Notes under the pieces: model-generated | Seen by the model: the letters and a program-made list of their open reading frames with translations, nothing else | What the model was told of the DNA's origin: nothing | The model's database searches: none | Shown here: positions 6,292 to 37,036 of the stretch, piece by piece | Numbering within the stretch: the first letter of the stretch is position 1 | How the letters are laid out: each line of letters starts with the position of its first letter | From: Rhynchopus sp. YZ270_cl-10 | Taxonomy: Eukaryota; Euglenozoa; Diplonemea; Diplonemida; Diplonemidae | DNA length: 64,000 nt | Direction: 5' to 3' | NCBI GenBank assembly: GCA_964035575.1 | Contig: OZ037867.1 | Location: 496,001-560,000 of the forward strand | Made by a program: the position numbers and the translations under genes

Positions 6292-6355
6292 TTTTTTTTT
6301 TTTGAAAAATTGTTGGAATAGTGTAGTTGCCACCTGCCGGCAAGCTCCCACTGTC
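6292..6355 (-). repeat. A-tailed mini-hairpin repeat, short type
   Basis: On the plus strand: a T tract, GAAAAATTGTTGGAATAG, TGTAGTTGCC and a complementary GGCAAGCTCCCACT. Read on the minus strand it is a hairpin ending in an A tail. It is paired with a second copy 30 bp on. Confidence 0.65.
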
Positions 6356-6385
6356 AATTTTTTTTTTTTTTTTTTTTTTTTTTGC

Positions 6386-6430
6386 CTTTTTTTTTTTTGA
6401 AAACTTGGTTGCATTAGTGTAGCCACCCCC
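6386..6430 (-). repeat. A-tailed mini-hairpin repeat, ACACCC-type, partial
   Basis: A T tract followed by GAAAACTTGGTTGCATTAG and TGTAGCCACCC. The second arm of the hairpin is not clear. Confidence 0.5.
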
Positions 6431-6841
6431 CGACACAACACAACAACCATCAGAGGAAGGGAATAGAGTGAGGGGAAGAGGGTTGCGCGACAAAAGATTA
6501 AATCAATAATGCCTTTTTTAAAAAAAAATTTGAAAAAAAAAGAGTTTTTACTCATTCCTGACCTCTAATATAATAGGCATACATGAAATTCGTATTATAT
6601 ACGAACCACCATGTACAAAAAAGGATATGCCCCATTATTTTTCTATGTGAAGGCCTCGTTTCATAAATGCATGCGATTAGAGTGACCTTTTTTTTGTTTC
6701 TCGCAAAATGCATCTGACCTGTGCCTTCTGTTCATAGAAAAATCATTCAACTGTATCCTTTAACAGAGAGGGGAAGAATAAGCAAAACACACAAAAAAAA
6801 AAACAAACACAACACGCTTGGGAGAGGGAGATGAGTATGGC

Positions 6842-6920
6842 CCTTTTTTTTTGATAAATTGTTTGGAGTAGTGTAGGTTGCCTCGGGTTGTGTTGCCACA
6901 GTTGTGCAAATCTCCACTGT
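6842..6920 (-). repeat. A-tailed mini-hairpin repeat, long type
   Basis: A T tract, GATAAATTGTTTGGAGTAG, TGTAGGTTGCC, an inner TGTTGCCACAG section and the closing CAAATCTCCACTG. Confidence 0.7.
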
Positions 6921-7389
6921 TTTTTGTAGTTTTTTTTGACAATCACCCGGTCCGAGGATAGGGTTTTTGTACAAGGTCCACATTTGTTTTTTTTGTAGCT
7001 CACCTCTTGCTTTATGTGGATAGCAAAACAGCCCATCCCCGCGTTCGTGTGAGGAACCCGGTTAATGTTGCTGTCATAGGGGTGGTGGTTGCATTGTACA
7101 CAAAAAATTGTGGATCGCAGCCCAGCTAAACAAAAACAATATTTTTTTTTCAGATTCATATTTTTTTTTCAATTCAAGACAGATAGCTTTAGGGGGGAAA
7201 CCCCCCCCTTTCGGCAATAGAAAATTTTTTAGAGATGAACACACCTTTGCTAGGTGCGCCCATGCTAACAAAAAGAAGGGTAAATAAGATGAAAAGGATA
7301 TCGGGACCTGAAGGTACGAACACCTTTAAAACAAACAAAACAAACAGATGGTTCCAAATGGGTAGTTCCCATATTGAAAGAGAAAAGTG
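6921..7389. other. AT-rich spacer, no gene
   Basis: Homopolymer tracts and short frames only. The segment 7344-7385 (CAGATGG, CAAATGGG, GTTCCCAT) also occurs at 15857-15895, next to gene copy 7, so this is duplicated downstream flank of the membrane-protein genes. Confidence 0.5.
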
Positions 7390-7390
7390 T

Positions 7391-7475
7391 TTTTTTTTTT
7401 TTCTTTGATAAATTGTTGGAGTAGTGTAGTTGCCTCGGTTGTGTTGCCACAGTTTGTGCAAATCTCCACTGTATC
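7391..7475 (-). repeat. A-tailed mini-hairpin repeat, long type, inserted in a duplicated flank
   Basis: A long-type copy lies between GTTCCCAT-containing flank and gene copy 3. The same flank at 15870-15912 lacks it, so this copy looks like an insertion of ~85 bp. Confidence 0.75.
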
Positions 7476-7487
7476 TTTTTCGGCAGC

Positions 7488-7910
7488 TTAGTAGGCCGGT
7501 GCTACAGTGGTGTACGTTGTGCGTTCTGTTTTGTCACAGCAGCATCCTCCTGCAAAGAGCGCTGTGCAGGTGCACCCGATACCCTTGCAGCAGCAGCACC
7601 ACGCGCAGACGAGGACAAGCAGGATAGTCACCAGCACAGAAATAACAATGAACGCAACCGTGAACCCAGTCGTCTTGCATGATCCAAAGCTCTTCGAGGT
7701 TCCCGCGCTGATCTTCGCAAGCCCTTCGATGAACTCCTCTTGCGTCGTCGTGCACTCCGACCACGGGCACGTACACTTAAAGGCAGTCAAGTCATCAACA
7801 CCACAAGCATCAGATTTCAGTGCAATAGGACCATCAACGTGAACAGAGTCGTCACATCCAAAGACAGACGACACTGCAACAAAGAACAGCACGCATTTCA
7901 AGACAGACAT
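7488..7910 (-). CDS. Small Cys-rich single-pass membrane protein, copy 3, divergent (140 aa)
   Basis: The most divergent member. The signal peptide is MSVLKCVLFFVAVSSVFG. The outer part holds ACGVDDLTAFKCTCPWSECTTT. The membrane segment is TGFTVAFIVISVLVTILLVL. The tail is CCCCKGIGC, then CTALFAGGCCCDKTERT and a terminal TTVAPAY instead of the NEMH ending of the others. It lacks the conserved leader and the 3' hairpin, so it represents a second subfamily. Its C-terminal coding region is nearly identical to that of copy 7. The function is unknown; a surface protein is inferred from topology. Confidence 0.85.
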   Translation of the reverse strand: MSVLKCVLFFVAVSSVFGCDDSVHVDGPIALKSDACGVDDLTAFKCTCPWSECTTTQEEFIEGLAKISAGTSKSFGSCKTTGFTVAFIVISVLVTILLVLVCAWCCCCKGIGCTCTALFAGGCCCDKTERTTYTTVAPAY

Positions 7911-8393
7911 TTCTTAGAATAGGTTTTGTGGGAAGAAGGTGAAAAGATGTTCCTGTGGTTGGGAGGTTGTGAAAAAGGGAAGAGAACACACTGCAGAGAG
8001 CAAGCTCTCATCTTCCGTCGACACTAATGCAGCAGAGCTTGCAAAAGAAACGGAAGGTCACACTCAGCCTCAGGTGCTTAACCACTTCATAACAGTTTCG
8101 AGCTCGAGGGGGAAACCTTCTTACAGTAATGAAGACAACATGGGGAAATGGGTAGTATGAAGTTTTTGATGTTTTTTGCTTTGTGCTCTTGTTTTGCTTT
8201 TGTTTTTTTGTTTTTTTTGCTTTTTTTGCAGGGAATACACACGGGTAACATTCTTACATATTTGCATCGATACACCACCCACTGAGGGGTAGGGTCATGT
8301 ACTCATATATTGCCCGAAGGCTGTTGCACTGAACAATGTAGATGGTCTTCTTCCCATTTATGGTCAGAGGAAGTGCTCCACTGTTAGCCATAT
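7911..8393. other. Spacer upstream of copy 3, no gene
   Basis: Moderate GC content near the gene, then T-rich. Only short chance frames. AAGAAACGGAAGG and TCAGGTGCTTAACC are not attributable to a known feature. Confidence 0.4.
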
Positions 8394-8453
8394 TCTTTTT
8401 TTCTTGAAAATTGTTGGAATAGTGTAGTTGCCACGTGTGCAAGCTCCACTGTC
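8394..8453 (-). repeat. A-tailed mini-hairpin repeat, short type
   Basis: Clear short-type copy: GAAAATTGTTGGAATAG, TGTAGTTGCC, GCAAGCTCCACTGTC. The two arms pair with one mismatch. Confidence 0.7.
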
Positions 8454-8611
8454 TGTTCTTTTTGTTCTGGACAATACCCCCCACCGAAGCAAGTTCTGTA
8501 TAAACAACGTCGCCCGAAGGCTAATTACATTCGAAGGTAAAAGAATGCAGATTGTAATCTCCAATATGAAAATTCTTAATACTTTTTGTGATATGTTCTT
8601 GGAGCCCTGAA

Positions 8612-8878
8612 ATGGGAAATTACGTTCTGCACCATTCTAAAGGGTGCAAAAATCTGCTGAAAAAGATCTGGTTCAGCGACCAGGTTTCTTCAGGCATTAT
8701 CAGAGCTCCGCACTTTGGAGTGAAAAAAGAGGATGAATTAATATTTTTCCGACTCGGGGGCAGGGGGAGCAACAGTTCCTCCTTCAAGGAAGGCGGTGGG
8801 TCGTCAGGTTTCTTGGACGCCACGAGACAAACTCTATTTACTTTGTGGTTGATTCATGTATTGCAGAAACTCGAATGA
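8612..8878 (+). CDS. Uncertain 88-codon ORF
   Basis: An ATG-started frame beginning MGNYVLHHSKGC, in a locally GC-richer stretch. No domain, signal or membrane segment is seen, and the opposite strand is open too. It is listed only because composition differs from the flanks; it may be a chance ORF. Confidence 0.15.
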   Translation: MGNYVLHHSKGCKNLLKKIWFSDQVSSGIIRAPHFGVKKEDELIFFRLGGRGSNSSSFKEGGGSSGFLDATRQTLFTLWLIHVLQKLE

Positions 8879-8959
8879 GTACTCAGTTCAAGTTCAGTGT
8901 ATCATGTTTCAGGGTTTTTTTATTATTTATTTATTTTTGTCGTGTTGACGATCGCTGTG

Positions 8960-9165
8960 TTGGTCGGGGAGGGGGAAATTGTGAAAAGGGCTAGAGAGGG
9001 GAGAAAAATGCGATGTCACACGTATGGTGCTATACGGGGGGGTTTCACAACTATTCACAACTTTTCGTGCCCACATAAGTCAAGCAAAGCTGTGAAAAGT
9101 TGTGAAAAATTGTGAACGGGATTGAAATTTTGTGAAACAGCATGTCATACAGCATCATTTTTTGG
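8960..9165. repeat. Diverged fragment of the gene cassette flank
   Basis: Contains the GAGGGGGAAA, GGCTAGAGAGGGG and CATACAGCATCA landmarks seen at 2925-3015, 4785-4870 and 15340-15420, in the same order. It also contains small GTTGTGAAAA repeats and a CACAACTTTTC/GAAAAGTTGTG inverted pair. Confidence 0.5.
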
Positions 9166-9317
9166 GTATTTTGACGAAACAGAGCCTCAAAAAAAAATCA
9201 CCAAACCTACCCCTTGGGTGGGGGGTGCGGGAGGGTGGGGTGACCAAGCAATCTTAAAAATCTGAAGACAGAAGTTAAGTTTATAGCCATTTCCAAACTG
9301 TAAAAAAAAAAAGAAAA

Positions 9318-9360
9318 GTTGAGAGTGCAAACCGCCTCACCGTTCGGCGGACGTAGGCAC
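9318..9360 (+). repeat. H3-type hairpin (GCCTCACCGTTC core)
   Basis: GTTGAGAGTGCAAAC, GCCTCACCGTTC, CGGCGGACG and TAGGCAC, with inner CCG/CGG and outer GTGC/GCAC pairing. Other copies are near 15693, 21901, 23943 and 47824. Confidence 0.65.
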
Positions 9361-9475
9361 TGAATAATTGAACGAAAAGAAAAAGTCCTGCAAAATGAGC
9401 AACGCACTAAAATCACTTCAAAAAAACAACATGAGGGTTCTTTTTTTAGTATCGTTTTTTATACACTGAGACCTT

Positions 9476-9503
9476 CCATCCTGTTCAGCTTTAAACCGGG
9501 TGG
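9476..9503 (-). other. Conserved 3' hairpin of gene copy 4
   Basis: The stem CCATCC/GGGTGG is preserved with one T-G wobble pair relative to copy 1. Confidence 0.55.
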
Positions 9504-9523
9504 AGGGAGGATGTAAACGTTGA

Positions 9524-9940
9524 TCAATGCATCTCATTCCTGACGTAGGCAGGACCTGCAGGGGCCTGCTGCTCACAGCAGCACCCTCCCTGGCAGAGTG
9601 CTGTGCAGGAACAGCCGAGACCCTTGCAGCAGCAGCACCACGCGCAGAGGCACGTCAACAGAATCCCGATAATCACACTAATCACAATGAAGGCAATCGT
9701 CATCCCAGTGGGTGCGCACGTACCAAAGCTATCATTCGTGAGCTGGTACTTCGCCCATCCTTCGACGAACTCCTCCGGTGTTGTGGTGCACTTAAACCAT
9801 GGGCACCTGCACGAGTAATATCTCCCGTCGTCGTTTACACCACAAGCCGTGTCTGGGGTGTGAGTTTGGTAAACTCCAGCGTCACACCCAAGGGCAGCTG
9901 TCACTGCGGCGAAGAAGAGCGCACAACGCAACACAGACAT
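9524..9940 (-). CDS. Small Cys-rich single-pass membrane protein, copy 4 (138 aa)
   Basis: Intact family member. Signal peptide MSVLRCALFFAAVTAALG; outer part with ACGVNDDGRYYSCRCPWFKC; membrane segment TGMTIAFIVISVIIGILL; cysteine-rich tail CCCCKGLGCSC and GGCCCEQQ; ending RNEMH. The start is the conserved Met, not the earlier in-frame one at 10036. The 3' hairpin and 5' leader are present. The function is unknown. Confidence 0.85.
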   Translation of the reverse strand: MSVLRCALFFAAVTAALGCDAGVYQTHTPDTACGVNDDGRYYSCRCPWFKCTTTPEEFVEGWAKYQLTNDSFGTCAPTGMTIAFIVISVIIGILLTCLCAWCCCCKGLGCSCTALCQGGCCCEQQAPAGPAYVRNEMH

Positions 9941-9986
9941 TTTATAGTTTTTTTTTGTTTTGTATCGAAACAGAATTTTCCTGTGG
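9941..9986 (-). promoter_or_regulatory. Conserved 5' leader of gene copy 4
   Basis: TTCGATACAAAAC, then an A-rich tract and ACTATAAA before the ATG. Confidence 0.45.
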
Positions 9987-10127
9987 TGTTGGTTTGTTTT
10001 ATGAGAGGTGAAAAGATGTTGGGAAATGGTTGTCAAGGGAAGAGAAGGAAATCGGTTGGGTCGAAGGGGGTTTGAGTGATTTGCACCGATCTTTCAAAAG
10101 AAGCTCCACCTCAACATGTACTGCATC

Positions 10128-10201
10128 TCACTCGGGTGCCTTCCGCTCACAGCAGCACCCTCCCTGGCAGAGTGCTGTGCAGGAACAGCCGATACCCTTG
10201 C
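10128..10201 (-). pseudogene. Fragment of a Cys-rich membrane protein gene (copy 5)
   Basis: Only the tail-coding part remains: KGIGCSCTALCQGGCCC, ERKAPE and a stop. The signal peptide, outer domain and membrane segment are missing. It is followed by a flank also found beside copy 4 (GGGTGGGGGGTG, CTTAAAAATCT), so it is the remnant of a deleted cassette between copies 4 and 6. Confidence 0.75.
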
Positions 10202-10337
10202 TGGGTGGGGGGTGGGAGGGTGGGAGGCTAGGGTAAGCAAGCAGCCTTAAAAATCTTAACACAGAGGTTAAGTGGATAGACACTTTCAAACTGTAAGAAA
10301 GAGAAGTTAGAGTTCTGTGATTTGGTACACTGAGACC

Positions 10338-10365
10338 TTCCACCTGTTTAGCCTTGAACTGGGTG
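10338..10365 (-). other. Conserved 3' hairpin of gene copy 6
   Basis: The stem CCACCT/GGGTGG, with a T-G wobble, lies just downstream of the stop codon of copy 6. Confidence 0.55.
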
Positions 10366-10385
10366 GAGGGTAATGTGAACGTTGA

Positions 10386-11599: not shown

Positions 11600-14224
11600 T
11601 CAACTGGATTCACTTCCTCCATCTTCGGTCGAACTGTCGTCGCTGCTTCTGTTGTCGTACTTCTCAAAGTTGCATCTGAGTGCCGCTTTGCGTGGCCCCA
11701 GGGTGACTGCCGCAGTCTCCTCTAGGCTTAGACAGCGCTGTTTGTGGTGCGCGACAGCTTCCTCTTGGCGTTGGGCGAAGCCTTCGGGCAGAGACGTCTT
11801 CTCCTTCTCCTCCTCCTCCTCCACCTTCCCCTCCATGGGGGCCGACGTCGTTCCCTCCTCCGGCTTCACCTTGTCCCCTTCCACAGCAGAGAGCCGTTCA
11901 TATAGTTGCAGCTCTTCGTCACCCCGAGCAAGCAGTTTGTTCAGCTCCGCATCCGACAGCCCATCTTGCGTATCTGTCGACGGAGGACGTACGATCACCT
12001 CACGAATCTTCTCATCCCTCATCAGCGCTGTCGACTTCTGGTCATACATCCCTGCCTGAATCGCGAGGGCCTCCTTTTCAAGTTTTGCGTCCGTAACACC
12101 GAGCATATGTTGTTCAACTGGAGCGTCGGTTTGAAGCTTGATGACAAGAACGTCACGTTGTTGTCCAAGACGGTGGGCGCGGCTCATTGCCTGGAGGTCC
12201 TGCTGTGGGTTCCAATCCATATCGTAGAAGAGAACTGTGTCAGCCTCCTGGAGATTGATGCCTTGGCCTCCTGCACGGGTGCTGAGGATGAAGACTTTGG
12301 AGTGTTGGTTGGATTTGTCTTGGAAGCGGCGCATTGCAGCGTCTCTGTCGTCGCATGAGGTGCAGCCGTCAAGGCGTTCATATTCGCGTTGTTTTGTCCA
12401 GTGGTACAGATGTGAGAAGATATCCTCCAACATATCCAAAACAGAAGCAAATTGAGTGAAAATCAAGCATTTATGCCTACATTCCACATCACTGCAGAAC
12501 AACCTCTGCAAAATTTTGTTCAAAATTTGCGCCTTCCCACTCCCCGCCAGCAGCAGAGAGTAGTACACACTGTCCGGAATATCCTGCCCAGAGAAGAGCA
12601 GGAGTGGGTGCAGGCACACTCTCCTCAACGACATATGCAGGTTCCCACCCAGACGGGGCGGCGGCGTGTACGCACCCTCGGTGGAGGGGGGGGCAACCAT
12701 CCACCCAACCACATTGTGCTCCTGTACCTGCTTGTAGAGGCTTAGCTGAAGGTCGGTGAGAGGTGCCTTGACGATGACCTCGCGTTTGGAAGGAAGTTTC
12801 AGAAGAACATCTTTCTTCTCCCGGCGTAGCATGAAGGGGCGGAGCAGGCTGTGCAGTCTGTGGGTGAGCAGCAGTTTTTCTTCGTCGCTGGTCGGTTCGC
12901 TTTGGGCTTTCTTGTCAGAGAGGCCAAACCAGGAGTCAAATGATTCCGGGTTTTTGAAGGTGTCTGGCATCAAAAAGTTGAGCAACGACCACAATTCTTG
13001 CAGCTCATTTTGAAGCGGGGTGCCAGTCAAGAGGAGGCGGTTTTTTGCCTTAATCAGACGGACGTTCTGTGAGAACGTTGCGGCCGCGTTCTTCAGACGG
13101 TGCCCTTCGTCCACCACCAATGCGGTCCACTGCTGGGATTGGAGGGCCGTCTTCATATCCTTCAGGGCTGGGTGCTGGAGGGATGCGTACTGTGCCACCA
13201 CCACGTCATGGGATGAAACTGCTTTGCATAGATTCCAACGTTCTTCTCTGCTTCCGTGGAATTTGAGACATTTCAGATGTGGTGCACAGCGTCCCAACTC
13301 TGCCATCCAATTGTCCAAAGTCGAGAGAGGCGCCAACACCAAAAACCGCGCATTGGTGAGATCTCCGTCTTCAAGCATCCGGCAGAAGAGTGCAATGGTC
13401 TGCGCAGTCTTCCCTAACCCCATTTCGTCTGCAAGAATCGAATTGACCTTTTTCACGCTGTTTGCGTAGAGCCATGCTACACCTTCGAGTTGGTATGGTT
13501 GGAGGGTGAGGGTCTTGAACGATGTTGGTTGGGTGGGTTGGGAAGGTGGTAGGTCTTCTGAGACCAACCCGAGAGAGGCGATGATGGTCTCGGTTTGCTT
13601 CATGAGTTCTGCGTAGCGGTTGTGGGAGGACTCTGCGAGCTTGCGTTTGTATGCTTCGCTGTCACCTTTGCGGAGCAGGGCCATTCTCTCTTTGCGGTCG
13701 TCGTTCTCCTTCTTCCGCATCACTGCTGTCGCTAGAGTCTGCAGGCAGCGCATCTTCTCTTTCCTCACACCAAGCTGTGTCACCCCCGCAGGCATCAATG
13801 AATCTCTCGGTACAACCTTCTGCCGCATCGCCTGAGGCCCTACCCCAAGTCTCGTCACCCCAATCGGAATAGAATACCGTTGACTCAACATCGCCCTCAC
13901 CTCCTCACTACTGTTGGGTGGAGTAAAGGTGGTCCGATAGTTCGCCATTTGAAAGCCGTTTTGCGAATTCAAAGTGAACGGAGAGTAGAGTGGGTGTGTG
14001 TCGAGGTTGGGTGTGGGAGGTGGGGTGGTGGGTTGTGGTGGTGGTGGGGGTGGGGGTGGCATGGTTGCTGGTGTTGTAGGTGCGCCAGGTTTTGTGGTCC
14101 GGCGTGTTGCAGGTTTTGTGGCAGGTTTGGCAGTGCGTTTTGTTGCAGGTTTCGTTGGTTTGGTGGGTTGCGGTGCAGTATCCACCTTCAGTTTCTTCTT
14201 CGGCTGGTGAAGCGCTTTTGGCAT
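11600..14224 (-). CDS. SNF2: Snf2/Brahma-type chromatin-remodelling ATPase (874 aa)
   Basis: Uninterrupted 874-aa frame with ATG start. The N-terminus (about 1-75) is Pro/Thr/Lys low complexity. Residues ~175-220 (KERMALLRKGDSEAYKRKLA, RYAELMKQTETIIASLG) resemble the region after the HSA domain of Snf2/Sth1/Brg1 proteins. The helicase core follows: Walker A DEMGLGKTAQ near 265, DEGH near 368, LLLTGTPLQN near 398, and motifs V-VI STRAGGQGINLQEAD to QAMSRAHRLGQQ near 643-680. After the core, IQAGMYDQKST and LNKLLARGDEELQLYE match the SnAC-like post-helicase part of the Snf2 subfamily. There is no bromodomain; the C-terminus is acidic. It uses ATP to move nucleosomes in the nucleus and is probably the motor of a SWI/SNF-like complex. 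It is shorter than animal or yeast homologues. Confidence 0.96.
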   Translation of the reverse strand: MPKALHQPKKKLKVDTAPQPTKPTKPATKRTAKPATKPATRRTTKPGAPTTPATMPPPPPPPPQPTTPPPTPNLDTHPLYSPFTLNSQNGFQMANYRTTFTPPNSSEEVRAMLSQRYSIPIGVTRLGVGPQAMRQKVVPRDSLMPAGVTQLGVRKEKMRCLQTLATAVMRKKENDDRKERMALLRKGDSEAYKRKLAESSHNRYAELMKQTETIIASLGLVSEDLPPSQPTQPTSFKTLTLQPYQLEGVAWLYANSVKKVNSILADEMGLGKTAQTIALFCRMLEDGDLTNARFLVLAPLSTLDNWMAELGRCAPHLKCLKFHGSREERWNLCKAVSSHDVVVAQYASLQHPALKDMKTALQSQQWTALVVDEGHRLKNAAATFSQNVRLIKAKNRLLLTGTPLQNELQELWSLLNFLMPDTFKNPESFDSWFGLSDKKAQSEPTSDEEKLLLTHRLHSLLRPFMLRREKKDVLLKLPSKREVIVKAPLTDLQLSLYKQVQEHNVVGWMVAPPSTEGAYTPPPRLGGNLHMSLRRVCLHPLLLFSGQDIPDSVYYSLLLAGSGKAQILNKILQRLFCSDVECRHKCLIFTQFASVLDMLEDIFSHLYHWTKQREYERLDGCTSCDDRDAAMRRFQDKSNQHSKVFILSTRAGGQGINLQEADTVLFYDMDWNPQQDLQAMSRAHRLGQQRDVLVIKLQTDAPVEQHMLGVTDAKLEKEALAIQAGMYDQKSTALMRDEKIREVIVRPPSTDTQDGLSDAELNKLLARGDEELQLYERLSAVEGDKVKPEEGTTSAPMEGKVEEEEEKEKTSLPEGFAQRQEEAVAHHKQRCLSLEETAAVTLGPRKAALRCNFEKYDNRSSDDSSTEDGGSESS

Positions 14225-14367: not shown

Positions 14368-14755
14368 TGCAAATAGTGGTAGTGGGTGGGGTGGTGGTGG
14401 TTATAGTGCGCAAGGCGAATGCCATGACAGGTCGTAGCACGACAAAAAAAGAACTCAAGAAGAAGGGACAGTGGAGCTTGCATGTGGCAACTACACTATT
14501 CCAACAATTTTTCAAAAAAACGAAAAATAATCGAAGAAACTAGGGAAAGTGGATCCTTCCTATTGTGATCCTTTTTTTGCACAAGAAAAATTCTGGTGAA
14601 AAAAAAAAGCGGAAAAAAATGGTGCAGTGCACGTGCGTGGACACAGTTTTCCCACCGTGATACAAGTACCATTTCATCGTCTCATTCAGTGCGGGGGTTC
14701 ATAACAAAGCTGCGTTACTCAGTAACGTTGTTCGCGAGTTGAACACACATGGGGG
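14368..14755. repeat. Direct repeat upstream of Snf2, left copy
   Basis: Matches 16425-16772 over most of its length (GTGCGCAAGGCGAATGCC, GATCCTTCCTATTGTGATCC, GCGTTACTCAGTAACGTT). The left copy carries an extra ~54-bp mini-hairpin insertion. It probably represents duplicated upstream sequence of the membrane-protein cassette. Confidence 0.8.
14467..14520 (+). repeat. A-tailed mini-hairpin repeat, short type, inserted in a direct repeat
   Basis: Starts GGACAGTGGAGCTTGC, continues GGCAACTACACTATTCC and ends AACAATTTTTC plus an A tract. The other copy of the surrounding repeat (near 16541-16565) reads straight through without it, so the 54 bp are an insertion. Confidence 0.8.
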
Positions 14756-15034
14756 TGAAATTTTAACAGTTTGAGATTTTGGCGAGATCTCTGTCGAAAG
14801 TCAGAAATTTTCCAAAAACCTTGCTCAGAGATCTCTATGGTACCGTGTCATTTTGTGCGAGTAAGTGCATTTTGCTTTGGCATTGTTTCAGAAGTGTCAC
14901 CACACCAATCCAAACAAATACCAGTCACATCCTGTTTGTGTATCAGATAGAAAACCTCGAGCAAACAAAAAAAAGAAAAATTAAATATAGTGGAGTTCAT
15001 CCTCGGGTGTCTACACTAATACAACCAAGTTTTC

Positions 15035-15070
<36 letters not shown>

Positions 15071-15810: not shown

Positions 15811-15915
15811 GAGTCTTTATTATCGTTTTGATACACAGAGACCTCAAAAAAAACAAACAGATGGTGCCAAATGGGCAGTTCCCATCTGGAAAGATGCAAG
15901 TTTTCTTTCAGCAGC

Positions 15916-16332
15916 TTAGTAGGCCGGTGCTACAGTGGTGTACATTGTGCGTTCTGTTTTGTCACAGCAGCATCCTCCTGCAAAGAGCGCTGTACAGGAA
16001 CAGCCAAAACCCTTGCAGCAGCAGCACCACGCGCAGATGCATATCAACAAAAGCACGATAAGCACACCAACTACAATGAAGGCAATTGTCATCCCAGTGG
16101 GTGAGCACGTACCAAAGCTATCCCTTGATCCGCGTGCAATCTTCTGCATGGCTTCTTCGAACTCCTCCGACGTTGTGGTGCACTTAAACCATGGGCACCT
16201 ACACGAGTAATATCTCCCGTCGTCGTTTACACCACAAGCCGTGTCTGGGCTGTATATTTGGTCAACTCCAGCGTCACACCCAAGGGCAGCTGTCACTGCG
16301 GCGAAGAAGAGCGCACAACGCAACACAGACAT
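15916..16332 (-). CDS. Small Cys-rich single-pass membrane protein, copy 7, mosaic (138 aa)
   Basis: The N-terminal two thirds follow subfamily 1 (MSVLRCALFFAAVTAALG, CGVNDDGRYYSCRCPWFKC, TGMTIAFIVVGVLI). The last third follows copy 3 (CTALFAGGCCCDKTERT, TTVAPAY), including near-identical DNA across the stop and the 3' flank. It is therefore a mosaic, probably from gene conversion or unequal exchange. It has the subfamily-1 leader but lacks the 3' hairpin. The longer frame upstream of the conserved Met is not conserved and is not used. The function is unknown. Confidence 0.85.
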   Translation of the reverse strand: MSVLRCALFFAAVTAALGCDAGVDQIYSPDTACGVNDDGRYYSCRCPWFKCTTTSEEFEEAMQKIARGSRDSFGTCSPTGMTIAFIVVGVLIVLLLICICAWCCCCKGFGCSCTALFAGGCCCDKTERTMYTTVAPAY

Positions 16333-16424: not shown

Positions 16425-16772
16425 AAATAGTGGTAGTGGGTGGGGGGTGGTGGTGGTGGTGGTGGTGGTGGTGGTTATAGTGCGCAAGGCGAATGCCGTG
16501 ACAGGTCGTATCACGACAAAAAAAAGAACTCAAGAAGAAAACGAAAATAATCGAAGAAACTAGGGAAAGTGGATCCTTCCTATTGTGATCCTTTTTTTTT
16601 ACACAAGAAAAATCCCGGTGAAAAAGAGAACGAAAAATATGGTGCAGTGCACGTGCGTGGACACAGTTTTCCCACCGTGATACAAATACCATTTCAACGT
16701 CTCATTCAGTACGGGGTTCATAACAAAGCTGCGTTACTCAGTAACGTTGTTCACGAGTTGAACACACATGGA
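16425..16772. repeat. Direct repeat upstream of copy 7, right copy
   Basis: Partner of 14368-14755. It has an expanded GGTGGTGGTGGT tract and lacks the mini-hairpin insertion of the left copy. Confidence 0.8.
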
Positions 16773-16943
16773 GGGGAGGGAGGGGTGAAAGGGGGGAGCA
16801 AACGAAGGGGAAGGGATGCAAGCACTGTGGTGTGCTCACTCTACGAGATGTATGAAACGCACACTGAAAATAGTTGTTTGTGAACAAAAGGCTCCATTCT
16901 GGGTGACGTTAGCATTCGAACACACACACACTCTCTCACTGAT

Positions 16944-19472: not shown

Positions 19473-19556
19473 TTTTTTATTTATTTTGATAAATTGTTGG
19501 AGTAGTGTAGTTTGCCTCGGTTGTGTTTGCCACAGTTGTGCAAAGTCTCCACTGCC
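19473..19556 (-). repeat. A-tailed mini-hairpin repeat, long type
   Basis: GATAAATTGTTGGAGTAG, TGTAGTTTGCC, TGTTTGCCACAG and AAAGTCTCCACTGCC, matching the long-type copies at 6.8, 7.4, 24.3 and 34.2 kb. Confidence 0.7.
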
Positions 19557-21080
19557 TCTTTTTTCTTTTTGTGTTGTGGTAACGCGAATCCACTGTGCGC
19601 TCCCATCCCCAGGGAAGGGGGTGGGTGGTCATACCCGCTCTTCTCTACCGCCGTAAAGGAGCTTTGTTTTTGTTTTTTGTTTTTTTGTTTTTTTGTTTTT
19701 TTGTTTTGTTTTTTTGGCGTAATTCGCCCTCAACGTTTGTTGGGTTTGCGGGGAGGTGCTGTGGAGAAGTGGGGAGGAAAGGAGGAAAGGAGGAAGAAGG
19801 AAGTGGGTTATATCAGTTGTTTGAGTTATATATAGTGAAGCGTGAAAGGGGAGAGAGAGGGTAGACCGGACAATATTTTTTTTTTGCACCCTATTTTACC
19901 ATCTATTCAGTAGAATAGTTAGTATATGAAACAATTTTGTGCAGTTTAAGCACCCCATCACAGTGCGCACAAACTCATATTTTTTTTTGGGGCAAAAAAA
20001 TTGCTGGGAAAAATCTCTTCGTATTTTTCTACTGCAAATAATGCAAAGAAAATGCAAAGAAAAATTCTTCTCATACCATATATGCCTAGGGAAGTGGGGA
20101 GGGGAATGATTTCCTTACTAATGCAATTTGGCGTTCAGAACAAAAAAAAATGTTGAAAGATTTATATGACTGCGTGCATTGCGTGCATACACAATCAAAA
20201 AAAGGTAAGGATACTTTGGTCATTCTCTTTCCGCACTATACGAAATAATTTGTGACCCTGGTTCCATTTGTCTCACAGGTGGTTTGTATCTTTGTTTTTT
20301 GAAAAACTTGTTTTTTTTTGTGTATTGGTTGACACCCGAGGATGCACTCCACTTTTTTTTTCTAGCTTTGCTTTTACCCTCGCATCCCTACCAACAGGCT
20401 TCATAGACCAACATGGATTTTTAAAAAAATGCATCTTTTTTTCAATTTTTTTATTCTCATCCGCGAGAACACCCATAAGGAAGAAGGCAGGGGAGGAAAA
20501 GGGAAAAGGTGCAATATAACACAAGAGCCAGGCTCTCCACACACACGTACAAAAAATGATTTTTATTTTTATTTTTGCTTTTTGATTTTTTGCATCCAGA
20601 AAGAGACCGAGACGGGGGAAAATAATATAAAAAAAAGCGTGCGACCAAGAAAAGTGAATCTTTTGGTAATAATTTTTTGTATGGGTATTGTAGGTGTCTA
20701 ATTTATTAATCACTACACATCCCGGGGCAGCTCCGCTCTTGGAGCTTACCCCCACACCTGCCTTCAAATACACAAAATAACGCTTATACCCTACACAGGG
20801 ATCACCCAATAATCAATCCGCAAAAAAGACATGACTTTTCCTGACCTCTACATCCAAAAGATGCCAAGGAGGGATAACAGCCAAGCTTGAAAAAGAGTAA
20901 ATTCTAAAGGGGCTATGGGGTGAGGGGGGAAGGGGGAAAGGAGAAGGAGGGAGTGAAAGGGCGAAGCGAGGAAGATTACGAAGACTTAGTAAATCTACAG
21001 AGCCGCAGCAATAATAACTTTCTTTTTTTTTTTGTGTCGATAAAAAGAAAAAAGAAGGGGGCAAAAAAAAGAAATGTTGA
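19557..21080. other. Gene-free AT-rich region
   Basis: Homopolymer-rich. A partial ACACCC-type mini-hairpin (GACACCCGAGGATG, CACTCCACT) is at 20309-20352. GCTCCGCTCTTGGAGCT near 20730 is a small hairpin. No frame shows domain features. Confidence 0.45.
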
Positions 21081-21190
21081 AAGAGGAATGTGCCTCTGGT
21101 GCACACAGATCTTTTTAATAAAATTGTTGTTTTTTTTTTTGAAAAACTTGGTTGTATTAGTGTAGCCACCCTAGAGTGTGCTTCACTACA
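21081..21190. repeat. H2-type hairpin next to an ACACCC-type mini-hairpin
   Basis: At 21085-21110: GAATGTGCCTCTGGTGC, ACACAGATC (H2 class). At 21129-21190: a T tract, GAAAAACTTGGTTGTATTAG and TGTAGCCACCC. Confidence 0.55.
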
Positions 21191-22934: not shown

Positions 22935-24304
22935 GGTGTCCCCTGGAGAATATGGCCCTATCCTAACCAATATACTATAACTTTTCCAGAACAAAAGCCT
23001 CCTTATAAAACGTATGGGGGCTGCATTGGGTGTGAGGTAAAGCGGGATTTAAAAAAGGACTTTTTTTTTTAAAAAAATTTGATTGTATGTAGTGCCAAGG
23101 CGGAGATCAAAGACCTCCACCATAATTTTTTAGTTTTGCTTTTAAATTGTATCGACAATCACCCCTAGTGGAGGGAAGGGGGGGGGTGTGGATGGTGGTG
23201 TACATTCACGAAGCAAGCAGGGGGGTAAGAGTTAAGAAGAGAAGTTTGAAAAATGCAAACTAAAAATAGAGAAAACGGCCCCTTGAACGATGACTTTTGG
23301 ACCTTGAGCGCACACCCCAAAAAAAAAAAAAAATAGTTGTTGATACAAACATCTTCAACTGACCCACGCACGATGCCAACCACCCAGATGAAAGCACAAC
23401 AAAAAACTTGATAGTACAAACATCCTTTGGGACGCATTTTTATTGATGTACTTTGCGTATTCCAATACTGTCACCATGAGAGACATCCCACCTCTCCGTC
23501 TCATTCCCAACCCACCAGTGCCCCATCAATCAAACGGCCCCAAAGTAGAGGCCTTCTCTTGAAAGTGGTTTTCTGGATAATAAAGACTGTCTGAATGGCG
23601 AAACTCAGCAAAGAGATTGTCCAAAAAAAAAAAAAAAAAAAAAAAATTGAAGATATATTGTAAACCAGCCCTACATAAGAATCAAAAATAAAGCACCCCA
23701 AAGAAAACGCGTGTATGAAACGACACGTTTTTTTGTGAGGTGGAAAAAAAAAAATAAACAGGGAGGCAGAAATAAAATGCTCCCTGTTTTTCCCCCCTCT
23801 TTCGTGTGTGTGTGTGTGTTTTAAAAAAAAATTCCTTCTTTTACCCGAGAGGGGGGGAAATTAAGTTCGTTTTTTTTTTTTGACAGAGTTGAAAATATAC
23901 TTAGCAAGACTAACATTAGACGGACAATAAGAAAAAAAGAGAAGTTGAAAAGTGCACACGCCTCACCGTTCATCGGTGGACGCAGGCAACGTAGGGGGAG
24001 GTGAAGCTGGAAAAGGGGTACCACCTCCTTTTCCCTCTACCAGATGGGCACGTACCAAAAAAAAAAAAAACTCTGCGGGGTTATTGAACCCACGGAGAGC
24101 CATAAGAAAATAGGGGAAAAAAACAACGAAAATCATATAAAAGACATGAACAGGCCATCACGGGCACAACATATCCTTACAAATAATAATATGGGGAAGA
24201 GAAAAAAGGAAAAAAGCTCTAGGTGTCTAGGTGAGAGGAATGCTTCGAAATATGCCTTGTGAGATTGTGTGTAGAATAGGGATTGTTTGTTTTTTTTGTT
24301 CTTT
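22935..24304. other. Gene-free region with one H3 hairpin
   Basis: AT-rich, with long A runs at 23620-23645. The H3 hairpin at 23943-23990 reads GTTGAAAAGTGCACACGCC, TCACCGTTC, CGGTGGACG, CAGGC. No gene is supported. Confidence 0.5.
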
Positions 24305-24387
24305 TCTTTTTTTTTTGATAAATTGTTTGGAGTAGTGTAGTTTGCCCTCGGGTTGTGTTGCCACAGTTGTGCAAATCTCCACTGTCC
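24305..24387 (-). repeat. A-tailed mini-hairpin repeat, long type
   Basis: A T tract, GATAAATTGTTTGGAGTAG, TGTAGTTTGCCC, TGTTGCCACAG, CAAATCTCCACTGTCC. It is followed by a short-type copy 34 bp away. Confidence 0.7.
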
Positions 24388-24420: not shown

Positions 24421-24474
24421 TTGAATACTCTGTTGGATTAGTGTAGCTGCCACACAAGCAGTCTTGCACTGTCC
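24421..24474 (-). repeat. A-tailed mini-hairpin repeat, short type, diverged
   Basis: TCTGTTGGATTAG, TGTAGCTGCC, AGTCTTGCACTGTCC. The stem is less regular than in other copies. Confidence 0.5.
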
Positions 24475-26751: not shown

Positions 26752-26894
26752 CTTTTTTTTGAAAACTTGGTTGTATTAGTGTAGACACCCGAAGATGAGC
26801 TCAGCTCCACTATAGTTTGTTTTTTTTTTTTTTTTCCATTATTATTTTGAAGAATTGGGAGTGTAGTTGCCGACTGTGCAAACTCCACTGTCCC
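26752..26894 (-). repeat. Pair of A-tailed mini-hairpin repeats
   Basis: 26752-26815 is ACACCC-type (TTGGTTGTATTAG, TGTAGACACCC, CAGCTCCACTATAG). 26818-26894 is short type (T tract, GAATTGGGAGTGTAG, TTGCC, GCAAACTCCACTGTCC). Confidence 0.65.
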
Positions 26895-27553: not shown

Positions 27554-27641
27554 GTCAACTTTATTTTAAAAAAAATTTTATAAAAAAATGATTGTGACAT
27601 TGGCGATGCAAAATATCTCATTAACGAGTGTGTATACAAAA

Positions 27642-32328: not shown

Positions 32329-32337
32329 AAAAAGGGT

Positions 32338-32516
32338 CACGGTGGCCAGTTTGATGTGGGAGAGCGTCAAAAGTGGACGAAAATACAGGTTTGTAATCCG
32401 CGGGAGGGCGTCTGGGAGAGCGTCTCCACACCCAGTGGCTACCAGACGCTCTCCCAGATGCTCTCCCAAAAAACGTCAAATTTTTTGACGCTCTCCCACT
32501 CAAACTGGCCACCGTG
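32338..32516. mobile_element. 179-bp MITE with long terminal inverted repeats
   Basis: Left end CACGGTGGCCAGTTTGA, then GTGGGAGAGCGTCAAAA. The right end is the exact type of complement (TTGACGCTCTCCCAC, CAAACTGGCCACCGTG). The terminal inverted repeats cover ~35 bp with one or two differences. A 3-bp GGT flanks both sides as a possible target duplication. The interior has a GGGAGAGCGTCTCC palindrome-like part. No coding capacity. Confidence 0.75.
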
Positions 32517-33003
32517 GGTGGAGTTTCGATTTTGTGATTAAACATCAGGTTCTTTACAAAGTCTTTAACGTTAACAGAAAAAGCAAAAAAAGGGTGTGAT
32601 GATTGTGTTTTTTTTTGTATTTTGATAAAAGTCTTTTCAAAAAAAAAAAAAAATATATGACTAAATGACACACTTCGAGTTTCGTTCACGCCAGGGTAGA
32701 GGTGGGGGGGGTGGGGTGCTATATAAAAAAACATAGCATGTATTCACTACCATTATTTTTTAAAAATGAGGAAAAGGGCGAAGTATTTGGAAAGTTATAA
32801 AGAAAAATTAGAGAAAGAAAAAAAACAGTGCTGTTATTTTAAGCCTGTTTTGAACGAGGAGTTGTTTTTTTGTGGGAAATACTGGTGTTGCAGCTCTCTC
32901 TCTTAAGATGAAAAAAAAAGAGAAGTTGACTTATGTTACTTTGAAAAATTTGGAATAAGTATCGTTATGTCTTACAAATGTCCATTTGCTTTTTTTTCGT
33001 TTC

Positions 33004-33118
33004 TTTTGAAAATTTTGTTGTATTAGTGTAGACACCCGAGGATGAACTCCGCTATACCTTTTTTTTTTTTCGATTATCTGTTGGATTCGCGTAGCCCCCA
33101 TTCAGACAATCTCTACCA
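33004..33118 (-). repeat. Pair of A-tailed mini-hairpin repeats
   Basis: 33004-33057 is ACACCC-type (GAAAATTTTGTTGTATTAG, TGTAGACACCCGAGG, GAACTCCGCTATA). 33060-33118 is a weak short-type copy (TCTGTTGGATTCGCGTAG, CAATCTCTACC). Confidence 0.55.
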
Positions 33119-33570
33119 TAATCAGCATCACCTCAGTGACGAAAATGATGAACAAAATAGTAACTCTGATAGGTAAGTAAAAGGAAAAAAGGTTTTTTCG
33201 AAAAAAAAAAGAAAAGAAATCGGAAATTTGATCTAGACACTTCTATTATTTCCATTTTCTGTGAAAGGAGATAAAAAACGTAAAAAGTGGAGGAAAAAAA
33301 TGTGGGCAAAAAAAATAAATAAATAAAAACTGCTTCTTTGGACATCCATCCTGCTTTAGAAAAAAAGAGTTGTTGTTTTTTGGGATGCTGAAGGAGTAAT
33401 TTATTCTCTCTCTCTTTTTTTTTTGCCGTACGTTCCTATTTTTTTTTTGTCTACGTTCTCATTGAAGAGCACGTGGGGAAAATAAGTCCTTTCACAATAG
33501 TTGTTTTGTTGTTACTGTCATTATGTTATTTTTTTTGAAAAAGAAAGTCTGAAAGAAGAAAAAAGTATTC

Positions 33571-33618
33571 CATGTACATTCTTTCCTAAACAAAAAGAAA
33601 AGAAGGCAAAGAGGGTGC
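33571..33618 (+). repeat. Dispersed TACATTCTTT...AGAGGGTGC repeat
   Basis: TACATTCTTTCCTAA and GAAGGCAAAGAGGGTGC. Related copies are at 34368-34414 and 45896-45940. The arms CATTCTTT and AAAGAATG can pair in the 34.4-kb copy. Confidence 0.55.
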
Positions 33619-33769
33619 GAGAAAAAAATGAAAATTGAAGCGTTTAGTTTACCAACTTTGTGTTTCTTTATGAAAAGAATCACGTAAGAGAGGAACAGTG
33701 GAATCGGAACCCGCCTCTCTTCGTTTTCTGCCACCTTGTCGGGAGCAGTTTGTTTGTTTGTTTGTTTCT

Positions 33770-33823
33770 TTTTGAAAAACTTTGTTGTATTAGTGCAGAC
33801 ACCCGAGGATGAACTCCACTATT
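33770..33823 (-). repeat. A-tailed mini-hairpin repeat, ACACCC-type
   Basis: GAAAAACTTTGTTGTATTAG, TGCAGACACCCGAGGATG, AACTCCACTATT. Confidence 0.65.
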
Positions 33824-34170
33824 TTATTTTTTCTCTCCAAAAAATACCTAAAAAAACTTGCAAAACGGTCATTTAAATTTCGTTGAAAATATAATATTAT
33901 GAAAAATATGTAAAGCATTTTTGTGCATTCACCTTTTGGAAATGGGGGGAGAGAGGGAGATAGAGACGAGAGAAAAAAAAATCCTTCACGGCTTGACAGC
34001 TCCCCCGAGATCAAAAAAAATGTAACTGTGAAATACAAAAACCCCCCTCTTGCAACAGTGTACTTCTTTTGACTGATCAAATGTATGCAAACCTTAGTTA
34101 CCGTTGATATTCTGGGTTCACCTGTGAAGAGGCATAAAATTCCTACCCCAATGATGGGGGAAAAGTAATG

Positions 34171-34252
34171 ATTTTTTTTTTTTTTGATAAATTGTTTGGA
34201 ATAGTGTAGTTGCCTCTTTTTGTGTTGCCACAGTTTGTGCAAATCTCCACTT
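34171..34252 (-). repeat. A-tailed mini-hairpin repeat, long type
   Basis: A T tract, GATAAATTGTTTGGAATAG, TGTAGTTGCC, TGTTGCCACAG, CAAATCTCCACTTTC. Confidence 0.7.
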
Positions 34253-34476
34253 TCTTTTTTGTGTCGACAATCACCTAAGAACCCACTTGGGTGACTAATA
34301 GGGATTGTACTACGGAAGGTTTTTGACGTAGGTCGTCCTGAACCCTTGAGAGCAGTTTTTTAATTCATATACATTCTTTTCTTAGCGAAACAAAAAGAAT
34401 GCAAAGAGGGTGCAAAAAGCAGTTTTTTATAAATAAAAAAATTTCTTCCTCGGGGTAGTCTGACATTTATGTCACA

Positions 34477-34565
34477 AAAAAAATATTTTTTAAAGCCCTT
34501 CAACTTCAACATGGATGCTGCCGAAACTGAAGCACAATTTTAGGGCTTTAAAAAATATTTTTTTT
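34477..34565. repeat. Perfect 24-bp inverted repeat
   Basis: The arm AATATTTTTTAAAGCCCT (within 34477-34500) and its complement (34542-34565) enclose a 41-base loop. It could be a small MITE or a cruciform. Confidence 0.65.
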
Positions 34566-34574
34566 GGGGTGCTT

Positions 34575-35040
34575 CTACTCACTCTGAGTGGGTGTGTGAT
34601 GGATATTCGGGACTATGTGGGGTCCGGGAGGGGTATTTTGGGGGTTTCAGGCAAAAAAACGAAAAAAATATGACCGTAACAGGGGGTGTGCAAAGTGTCT
34701 TGGGGATGTCTTGGGGACGTCTTGGGCATTTTTTTGACCTAAAAACACCAAAAAAACACTTCCAAAAGTGTCAAATATGTCCAAAACAGGTTGGAATGGA
34801 CTCACAGGCCACTTTTGGGGTATATTTGTGCCAAAGGAGGCTTTGTGATGTCAAAAAATATCCCGGTTTTTGATTTTTTTCTCGAAAAATCGCTATTTTG
34901 CCCAAAGTGGCCAAAACGTGAAAAAAGCCGTTTTTTCACTATTTTTTTCCATTTTTTTGTATTCTGGGGTGGCTTCTGGGTCGTTTTTCGACCCACAGGC
35001 CCCCTGTGACCCACTCTGAGGGTGTTTTTCACCCGCAGTT
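34575..35040 (+). repeat. Single diverged copy of the palindrome-3 arm
   Basis: Shares, in order, TTGACCTAAAAACACCAAAA, CCAAAACAGGT(C/T)GGAATGG, ACTCACAGG, CACTATTTTTTTCCATTTTTT-like text and a GTGTTTTTCACCC-like end with the arms at 54515-55087. Here it lies directly before a composite element, as the arm at 54515-55087 does before the other one. Confidence 0.65.
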
Positions 35041-35117
35041 GCCTTGGAGATGGCCAGATAATGCCAAATGAATTTTCCGTGCGTTTGGTCCCAGCCAAAA
35101 TGGCTGGAGTCGTATCC

Positions 35118-36311
35118 CCTAGGCATAGGTGCCCGCCGAGTCGTTTTTGGGCGAGTTGTCGGAACTTTACGATTTCACCTAACAACTCGCCCAAAAACTC
35201 GGACAACTCGGCCACAACTCGCCCTATACTCGGCACAACTCGCCCTATACTCGGCACAACTCGGCCACAACTCGGCCACAACTCGCCCATTTTTACAGGC
35301 AAAAACATACAGGGATGGGAGGTGACGTTGTAAGGTTACACACATGTAACGTTGGTACAACACATAATCTCAAGAAAAACAACCAGGGCTAAGGCCAAAC
35401 GCCACTCATTACATGCACCTTGTCATATGACTAGTCATAGGTGGTAACTAGGTCGTGGTGGTCCATGGGCCACCGTGCACACTCACGGTTTTTGGTAATT
35501 GCTGGGGGGATTCACTTCACACAGGTCGGGCAGGCGCTGCCTGCCCATCCTCTTTTCCTGTCTGCTATCGATTCCAGGTTCACAACGTTCACACGTTTAG
35601 TCAAAATGCTTTGGGCGACGACTTCCTTTGGGATACACAAAACCACACAAAGCGCACATTCACAGACCAGCTGTGAAGCGTGGGATGCACAAGATAAAAC
35701 GTGATGTGGTGTACCTGTGTACCTGTGTACCTGTGTACCTGTGTACCTGTGTACCTGTGTACCTGTGTACCTGTGTACCTGTGTACCTGTGTACCTGTGT
35801 ACCTGTGTACCTGTGTACCTGTGTACCTGTGTACCTGTGTACCTGTGTACCTGTGTACCTGTGTACCTGTGTACCTGTGTACCTGTGTACCTGTGTACCT
35901 GTGTACCTGTGTACCTGTGTACCTGTGTACCTGTGTACCTGTGTACCTGTGTACCTGTGTACCTGTGTACCTGTGTACCTGTGTACCTGTGTACCTGTGT
36001 ACCTGTGTACCTGTGTACCTGTGTACCTGTGTACCTGTGTACCTGTGTACCTGTGTACCTGTGTACCTGTGTACCTGTGTACCTGTGTACCTGTGTACCT
36101 GTGTACCTGTGTACCTGTGTACCTGTGTACCTGTGTACCTGTGTACCTGTGTACCTGTGTACCTGTGTACCTGTGTACCTGTGTACCTGTGTTTTTGTAG
36201 CCATAAAAAATCCCAAAAAAAAACAACTCGCCCAAAAAAAATGGGCGAGTTGTTGGCCGAATTTGGGCGAGTTGCCGAGTTGTTTTAACTCGCCGGGCAC
36301 CTATGCCTAGG
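35118..36311. mobile_element. Composite element A with 23-bp terminal inverted repeat
   Basis: The left end CCTAGGCATAGGTGCCCG continues CCGAG; the right end (36289-36311) is its complement with one mismatch. Subterminal GGGCGAGTTGT and ACAACTCGCCC words are repeated in both orientations. The interior holds unique sequence and a large 8-bp microsatellite. A run of 19 G follows the right end directly. No recombinase is seen. Element B at 55088-55930 has the same plan. Confidence 0.75.
35711..36192 (+). repeat. Microsatellite, 8-bp unit GTACCTGT, ~60 copies
   Basis: Essentially perfect array, 482 bp long. Rotated, the unit is CTGTGTAC, i.e. the CTGTGTA core plus C. Long frames on both strands are artefacts of the repeat. 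Confidence 0.97.
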
Positions 36312-36528
36312 GGGGGGGGGGGGGGGGGAAATAATATAAAAACGAGAAAAGTGATCCTGTCACCTTTAATAAAATCGTTAGATGGCTGCACCCGCTGTGT
36401 GCGCACATCTCAAAGTGGGGGTGTGAGATCTTTTTTCACATTTGAGGCATCGATAACAATTCCCTCCCCCAATCACGAAAAGGTTCTGTCAGTATCGCAG
36501 CCCAACTTTTTAAAAATAAGAAAAGCTT

Positions 36529-36560
36529 GATGAATATGACTCTCGTGCACATCACACATC
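36529..36560 (+). repeat. H2-type hairpin
   Basis: GATGAATATGACTCTCGTGC, ACATCACACATC; preceded by AAAAGCTT as in other copies. Confidence 0.55.
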
Positions 36561-36989
36561 TTTTTTAAAAAGAAAGATAAATTGCGGGGCTGGGATGACT
36601 ACAGAAACACACAACACAACCTCTAATACTCATTATGTGAGTAGAGATGAGACGATAAACGCTGGTTTGACCCAGGTTTGTATTTTTTTATTTTTTTTTG
36701 AAATCTGAAAAACGGAAAGCCACTATTAAAATGGTCAGTACGCAATCAGTTTTTTTTGTTTTTTTTTTGTTTTTTTTTGTTGTTTCGAAACCCTCTCAGC
36801 CGATGAGAGGGGCGAGAAGAGCTCATTTTTTTGTTTTGTTAGTTTCGTTCGCACGTTTTTTTTTTTTTTTGGTTATGTTTTGTTTTGTTTTTGTTCTGTG
36901 TTTATAAAAAGATAAAAAACATAAGAAAACTGTGTCCAGATGATCACAAATACCTGCTTCAATCACCTTGACTGTCATAAAAATAAGAG

Positions 36990-37036
36990 TAAGTTTGTTG
37001 CACTAGTGTAGACACCCGAGGGATGAGCTCCACTTA
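36990..37036 (-). repeat. A-tailed mini-hairpin repeat, ACACCC-type, no long tail
   Basis: AAGTTTGTTGCACTAG, TGTAGACACCCGAGGG, GAGCTCCACTTA. Confidence 0.55.

Follow-up and report, generated by a model that had tools for sequence, protein, structure and literature searches.

A 64,000-nucleotide stretch of DNA from the diplonemid Rhynchopus sp. YZ270_cl-10 (C35:496001-560000, referred to here as the window) carries many copies of a short unit that consists of a hairpin, a single-stranded 3' end and an A tract, and this raises the question of what the unit is and how it came to be there. The copies are dispersed, their flanks are almost never common, paralogous sites lacking them exist, their A-tails vary in length, and the hairpin is kept between subfamilies. 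It is therefore likely that each copy represents an inserted small structured RNA of ~45-70 nt together with poly(A), i.e., a non-autonomous mini-retroposon dependent on a long interspersed nuclear element (LINE).

Copies in the window were defined with profiles that had been trained on clear copies and were run in nhmmer at E<=0.05. Eighteen copies were scored between positions 6,301 and 37,034, of which 16 are on the minus strand and two, at 14,470 and 14,989, on the plus strand. The group of about 19 mostly minus-strand copies at 6-37 kb that had been described in the initial annotation is thus real, and a diverged minus-strand sequence at 23,060-23,125 could be the 19th member. The short, long and ACACCC types described there are likewise all present, and are referred to here as S (~45 bp), L (~65 bp) and Ac (~45-50 bp). 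A covariance model, built partly from the window copies themselves, recovered all but one of them at E<0.05 (17 of 18), the copy at 20,303 being missed and that at 6,397 found only marginally (0.049). The copies and the two empty sites are as follows.

6301..6348, minus strand: S copy (profile and covariance model)
6397..6428, minus strand: partial Ac copy, 3' part (profile; covariance model E=0.049)
6851..6918, minus strand: L copy (profile and covariance model)
7405..7470, minus strand: L copy, ~18 nt beyond the stop of a small cysteine-rich open reading frame (ORF) at 7488-7910, with a paralogous empty site at ~15,900 (profile, paralogue comparison)
8403..8450, minus strand: S copy (profile and covariance model)
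14470..14516, plus strand: S copy, antisense to the SNF2 gene, inserted part from ~14,465 with GGGAC (profile, paralogue comparison)
14989..15036, plus strand: Ac copy, antisense to neighbouring genes (profile and covariance model)
15845..16204, minus strand: paralogous empty site for the 7405 copy (flank/paralogue comparison)
16450..16777, plus strand: paralogous empty site for the 14470 copy (flank/paralogue comparison)
19486..19553, minus strand: L copy (profile and covariance model)
20303..20353, minus strand: degenerate Ac copy (profile, 19 bits; missed by covariance model)
21142..21187, minus strand: Ac copy (profile and covariance model)
23060..23125, minus strand: possible degenerate copy with hairpin, CACTAC, T-rich end and A run (below profile threshold)
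24315..24383, minus strand: L copy (profile and covariance model)
24431..24463, minus strand: S-like degenerate copy (profile and covariance model)
26759..26806, minus strand: Ac copy (profile and covariance model)
26847..26889, minus strand: S-like copy (profile and covariance model)
33006..33053, minus strand: Ac copy (profile and covariance model)
33775..33820, minus strand: Ac copy (profile and covariance model)
34184..34251, minus strand: L copy (profile and covariance model)
36990..37034, minus strand: Ac copy (profile and covariance model)

Two paralogous empty sites in the window show that the unit is an insertion. At 16,450-16,777, the paralogous sequence lacks the S copy found at 14,470 and has AAGAAGAAAACG uninterrupted, as compared with AAGAAGAA, the element and AAAAACG at the occupied site. 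Similarly, past the stop codon of the paralogous gene, at ~15,900, there is no counterpart of the L copy at 7,405, and the sequence reads CTGCTGAAAGAAAACTTGC as compared with CTGCCGAAAAAGATAC, the element and AGAAAAAAAAAAAAACACTT. The occupied sites have extra A's 3' of the element, ~3-5 at 14,470 and ~16 at 7,405, and in the latter case the tail was therefore added. Among 51 copies the pure A run beyond the profile end ranged from 0 to 17, which is the variation in tail length that had been anticipated. When the surroundings of 29 L and 18 Ac copies were analyzed, the A content was 0.47-0.62 in the first 20 nt upstream, compared with a background of ~0.23-0.37 further out, and 0.79 directly downstream, decreasing to ~0.42 by 20 nt; the targets are A-rich on the sense strand. 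The view that each copy ends in an A tract holds as far as the variable A tail is concerned, but because A-rich DNA extends for ~20 nt on both sides, part of this tail may be A-rich target. Among 65 profile-defined elements, a common flank is seen for one pair only; it is 72 nt long and lies within 25 nt of the elements. The pair consists of two L copies, L017:5507 and L017:7907, whose common downstream flank is 100% identical and lies 16-20 nt from each, which suggests local duplication or a shared target. Three more elements adjoin repeats that are found elsewhere without the element, two further matches are the empty sites, and the other flank matches near elements are neighbouring elements.

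The family is not confined to the window. In the whole assembly (152.4 Mb, 126 contigs), an exact 12-mer of the element was found 3,089 times (1551+1538 by strand), an exact 16-mer 1,606 times (811+795) and an exact 25-mer of the L type 1,009 times (508+501), compared with 8 (5+3), 0 and 0, respectively, for the reversed controls, so that chance is excluded genome-wide. Several hundred copies had been foreseen, and the exact-word counts of 1,009-3,089 show the family dispersed over the whole assembly. These words are carried by 27, 10 and 9 of the 65 profile-defined copies, giving estimates of ~7,400, ~10,400 and ~7,300 copies, which are rough because the 294 kb behind the 65 copies were not chosen at random. 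Seven of the 65 have an identity to their own consensus that rounds to 1.00 (the S consensus was itself written from one of these), and among 30 L copies 12 reach at least 0.98; such near-identical copies appear to be young. A possible fourth subfamily, with an AGTGAAG start and its own upper stem, was seen at L014:7891-7947, in the region of L025:3960-4186, at L032:3916 and among some S-like matches. An exact 23-base word of the element was absent (0 matches each) from a viral and a prokaryote collection.

Consensus folding gave a single hairpin in every type (S, -13.7; L, -14.8 and -16.0; Ac, -7.8 and -14.8 kcal/mol). Its constant part is the lower stem, AGUG-G-AG opposite CU-A-CACU with a G/A mismatch, and the upper stem depends on the subfamily, being UUGC/GCAA in S and L and CAUC or CACU/GGUG in Ac; the stem differs on both sides between subfamilies. 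The hairpin is followed by a single-stranded 3' end, AACAAUUUAUC, AACAAUUUUUC or AACCAAGUUUUC, and then by the A tail. At the base of the stem, GGGA/UUCC in S, GGA/UCC in L and GUAU/AUAC in Ac can pair. Since the bases GGGAC, GGAC or GTAT can pair with UUCC, UCC or AUAC, and since an empty site shows GGGAC as inserted, the full-length RNA probably starts with them, a few bases before AGTGGAG. The start at (AC)AGTGGAG given in the initial annotation is thus correct in that AGTGGAG is constant, but probably a few bases too late, and many copies do not have these first bases. Conservation of the pairing was evaluated by five measures in 39 aligned copies, using 500 shuffles and slid versions of the structure, and two of the five did not exceed the shuffles. 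For the other three, none of the 500 shuffles reached the observed value: 86.0% of hairpin cells are paired vs 80.7% in the shuffles (53.1% or less in the slid versions), the covariation score is 0.152 vs 0.101, and 34 vs 14.4 cells have a two-sided change.

Copying of such an RNA would require a reverse transcriptase (RT), and genes for it are abundant: 150 RVT_1 matches were scored of 739 candidates, many of them with intact ORFs. One LINE, referred to here as LINE A, has a 1,364-aa ORF with RNase H after RT, and its 3' end is GTGTTACACTTTCAAACATACTTTTTACTTTTC followed by an A-rich tail, the same in both of the two copies read. The local similarity of this end to the element consensuses was equalled by 3 (Ac), 18 (Ac2), 13 (S) and 348 (L) of 2000 shuffles, and when the comparison was anchored at the right end, 1 (Ac), 1 (S) and 3 (L) of 400 background sequences sampled in front of A-runs equalled the score. 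The ends of LINE C and LINE D were mostly weaker in such comparisons; stretches of LINEs B and G were also read, and C and D were those scored besides A. These similarities are suggestive of LINE A as a candidate helper. In 344 kb, in which some loci overlap, sequences with the element tail and no hairpin were 1 of 34 for L and 1 of 16 for Ac, each a broken copy, and 4 of 23 for S, all belonging to one unrelated repeat; no LINE fragment with the element tail was thus seen. In three cases (C5:1743211/1738620, C8:941611/945570 and C10:1310581/1305885) the spliced-leader 14-mer and an RVT_1 match occur on one strand, the former 3.91-3.95 kb upstream of the latter, which looks as if a LINE transcript had been trans-spliced before retrotransposition.

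We infer from these observations an RNA intermediate, with LINE A as its candidate helper. A small hairpin RNA with a single-stranded 3' end would gain an A tail and would be copied at T-rich nicks by a LINE-type RT. As neither the element itself nor common upstream flanks show a visible promoter, the RNA would come from a few unseen source genes or would be freed from polycistronic read-through transcripts. The latter could mean that the element is a promoterless retroposon sustained by polycistronic transcription, a possibility that we regard as doubtful. Every sense copy would then be transcribed by its host gene cluster, the hairpin would survive in the discarded spacer RNA that separates the poly(A) site of one gene from the spliced-leader site following it, and the surviving hairpin RNA would be adenylated and pasted back by a LINE. 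Sense copies would prevail either through insertion making use of the exposed template strand in transcribed DNA or through antisense copies acting as false trans-splice acceptors.

Several results weigh against the mini-retroposon or its proposed route. Target duplications were sought in 51 copies of 30 bits or more, by exact words and by local alignment with A down-weighted, in comparison with cross-paired controls. Exact words were no better than in cross-pairs (means of 4.12 vs 4.06; a duplication of A's only would be invisible), and local alignment gave 4.26 vs 4.24, equalled by 2104 of 5000 permutations. A few copies have a good-looking duplication (for example 56359 and 82429 of a C1 stretch), which did not lift the whole set, and the short target duplications that had been predicted are therefore not found above chance by either method. 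The unanchored match of LINE A to L is ordinary, as it was equalled by 102 of 400 background sequences in addition to the 348 shuffles; several LINE ends and consensuses were tried, with LINE A coming out best, so that its similarity would weaken under correction. Furthermore, the exact L-type 25-mer was not found within 5 kb downstream of any of 28 scored RT matches (contigs C1-C7). The four consensuses have no good RNA polymerase III (Pol III) boxes, the best B box having 3-5 mismatches in 9 fixed bases and the best A box 2. In the pairing test, neither the number of pairs with a two-sided change (4; reached by 466 of 500 shuffles) nor that of further pair types (9; 500 of 500) was above the shuffles. 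Of the stem-base pairs, 3-69 is formed in only 11 of 35 cells and 6-66 in only 13 of 39, because many copies are without the first bases, and the two-sided changes follow the subfamilies, which means few events.

The element was also compared with known systems. Small nuclear and other small-RNA retropseudogenes arise when a structured small RNA is copied back with an A tail. The element resembles them in both respects and differs in that no source RNA gene was found here; furthermore, several subfamilies with differing yet pairing stems suggest continuing propagation, unlike retropseudogenes. The initial annotation had proposed a retrocopied small RNA as the source, and no such RNA was found with Rfam: over the window nothing reached the gathering threshold, and at E<=1 over 6,250-8,500 there were two chance-level matches only, neither convincingly on a copy. 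A likeness of the 3' end, as an Sm site, to ACAACTTTGTCAAA in the spliced-leader gene was set aside as too short to weigh. Short interspersed nuclear elements (SINEs), which derive from tRNA, 7SL or 5S RNA, are usually a hundred bp or more in length. Like them, the element is short, noncoding and dispersed in high copy, has a variable A-rich tail, is probably helped by a LINE and possibly shares the 3' end of that LINE. It differs in its length of 45-70 bp, the lack of good Pol III boxes, the absence of a detected target duplication and a strong sense bias with host transcription, and because a Pol III promoter was not found, it is not a standard SINE. Trypanosomatid retroposons such as RIME, NARTc and SIDER, which are located between polycistronic genes, are likewise euglenozoan, noncoding and A-rich at the 3' end. 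According to one report, Leishmania SIDERs are ~550 bp long with a 79-bp signature, and 11-19 bp duplications were found in 18.9% of aligned LmSIDER2 copies (PMC2323293). Measured against that description, the element has about one tenth of the length, is mostly shorter than 79 bp and has no duplications seen; with ~45-70 bp between profile ends, it is not a SIDER. The accessible text on the Diplonema papillatum genome describes many dispersed repeats, LINE-like RT genes and a most abundant repeat motif present ~6,000 times (PMC10161547); such an element is not described in that text, nor is the nature of the 6,000-copy motif stated there, and kinship is possible. The terms sought were absent from the Rhynchopus euleeides genome note (PMC12171722), and a description was not found in the open-access literature with the search terms used. 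The element is neither a standard SINE, a SIDER by length, nor a miniature inverted-repeat transposable element (MITE; see below). It is best called a mini-retroposon.

The copies are strongly biased in orientation, 61 of 65 being on the strand of the local genes. Gene strand was assigned by Pfam: in the C1 stretches UCH, Aa_trans and MORN are on the minus strand, as are three more of ten scanned ORFs that have no family, and in the window SNF2, SASA and PUF are all on the minus strand. At L032/L033, picked because the elements there are on the other strand, the PP2C and CysS_C/RRM genes are on the plus strand, the same as the elements. The C1 stretch also contains a plus-strand DUF659 ORF, probably transposon-derived, and another plus-strand ORF with a sub-threshold match. 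Among the 100 matches listed, 71 of 92 pairs of neighbouring exact L copies agree in strand vs 46 when shuffled; pairs no more than 20 kb apart agree in 20 of 22 cases, and those more than 100 kb apart in 24 of 38. In the C1 stretch 39 of 40 copies are sense (binomial ~6e-14 against the supply of T- and A-runs). T-runs vs A-runs of 8 or more on the coding strand number 310/226 in the C1 stretch, 113/110 in the window and 53/33 in a second C1 stretch, and since T-runs exceed A-runs, target supply would not predict the sense bias. LINE RT matches do not follow it when their strand is compared with that of the nearest exact L copy (19 of 31 overall, and 11 of 18 for those at most 100 kb away).

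This bias, together with the conserved structure, could be taken to mean that the unit is a cis-acting RNA signal bound to genes, for 3' end processing, stability or termination, whose orientation is kept by function. The genes at L032/L033 follow the element strand, and one copy lies ~18 nt and another 6 nt past a stop codon, which would fit. However, when 35 elements in 165 kb were compared with simple gene models (ORFs of 180 aa or more), only one lay within 150 nt after a stop codon vs 1.3 expected, the position between ORFs was flat (11, 4, 6, 6 and 7 in fifths), no element was present in 15 of the 28 inter-ORF gaps while long ones held several, and one of the 35 overlapped an ORF at a coding fraction of 0.26. 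The flat position and the avoidance of ORFs argue that the copies are not an end-processing signal; antisense insertion is either rare or purged. The copies thus have no constant place relative to gene ends, in agreement with the initial annotation, and paralogous genes differ in carrying one, which makes a cis-acting signal improbable. The same avoidance of ORFs bears on noncanonical introns or introner-like insertions. Short introns with pairing ends are described for two Hemistasiidae diplonemids (PMC12621601); in the present element the A-rich end lies outside the pairing, and an intron origin is barely credible. It has also to be considered that the AGTG...CACT arms, which are present in each type, are the terminal inverted repeats of a MITE-like miniature DNA transposon, as the copy number is high and a DNA transposase gene is located in the window (DDE_1, 40,232-41,113). 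The unit runs 15-20 nt beyond the right arm into a conserved, one-sided 3' end and A tail, the 5' end is ragged, and a target duplication of fixed length is lacking, so that a MITE is very improbable.

The bias could, alternatively, have arisen after insertion in a way that is compatible with the mini-retroposon, if insertion was unbiased and antisense copies were purged as mock spliced-leader acceptors (poly(T) followed by AG). On the antisense strand a T-run is followed by GGAG or GTAG within ~20 nt, which may resemble an acceptor, and both the excess of T-runs on the coding strand in spite of 39 of 40 sense copies and the unbiased LINE RT matches are in line with purging. In contrast, LINEs may occupy other compartments, sense-only insertion into transcribed DNA would have the same outcome, and the four antisense copies, a tiny number, comprise two high-scoring and two degenerate ones, so that loss with age was not seen. 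We therefore give purging an even chance.

If the mini-retroposon is mobilised through RNA, it places a very low limit on the requirements of an RT for mobilising an RNA in trans, and if it is also promoterless, it would be near the minimal size for a transposable element, comprising one hairpin for recognition, a few unpaired bases and a tail. The subfamilies would provide natural variants of the recognition hairpin, and the sense bias would offer a direct test of the effect of trans-splicing on where insertions survive. The hosts, diplonemids, form a large group of marine protists, and the literature found has little to say on their mobile elements.

The setting is in keeping with the host. 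Large intact ORFs and long single-strand gene runs fit a diplonemid with polycistronic genes, and the closest named match of the SNF2 protein of the window (11,600-14,224) is from D. papillatum (43% identity, with 72% of the query covered). There are abundant tandem spliced-leader RNA genes, as an exact 14-mer occurs 745 times in the assembly vs 0 for the reversed control; GGTATGG follows the leader in these genes, and we take the leader to resemble those of diplonemids. The genome report indicates that genes of D. papillatum are likely co-transcribed in groups (PMC10161547). No transfer RNA gene was found in the window. Outside the tandem arrays, L035 (C1:1316076) and L034 (C1:576535) have spliced-leader exons followed by non-intron sequence, and in L035 an ORF follows the leader, resembling a retrocopied trans-spliced mRNA. 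At C1:728271-760000 (L025-L028) there is a tandem repeat with a period of 4,097 bp, inside which no mini-element was scored; one of its minus-strand ORFs matches Beta_helix, and three other scanned ORFs are without a match. In the window, six ORFs between 3257 and 16692 encode one type of small cysteine-rich protein starting with MSVL, for which no Pfam family was above the cut-off in the two of six scanned. Two overlapping ORFs at 39354-41113, the second with the DDE_1 match mentioned above, represent a DNA transposon that is perhaps broken, and short-period satellites at 35512-36288, 49848-50708 and 56100-57790 can be read as long repetitive ORFs.

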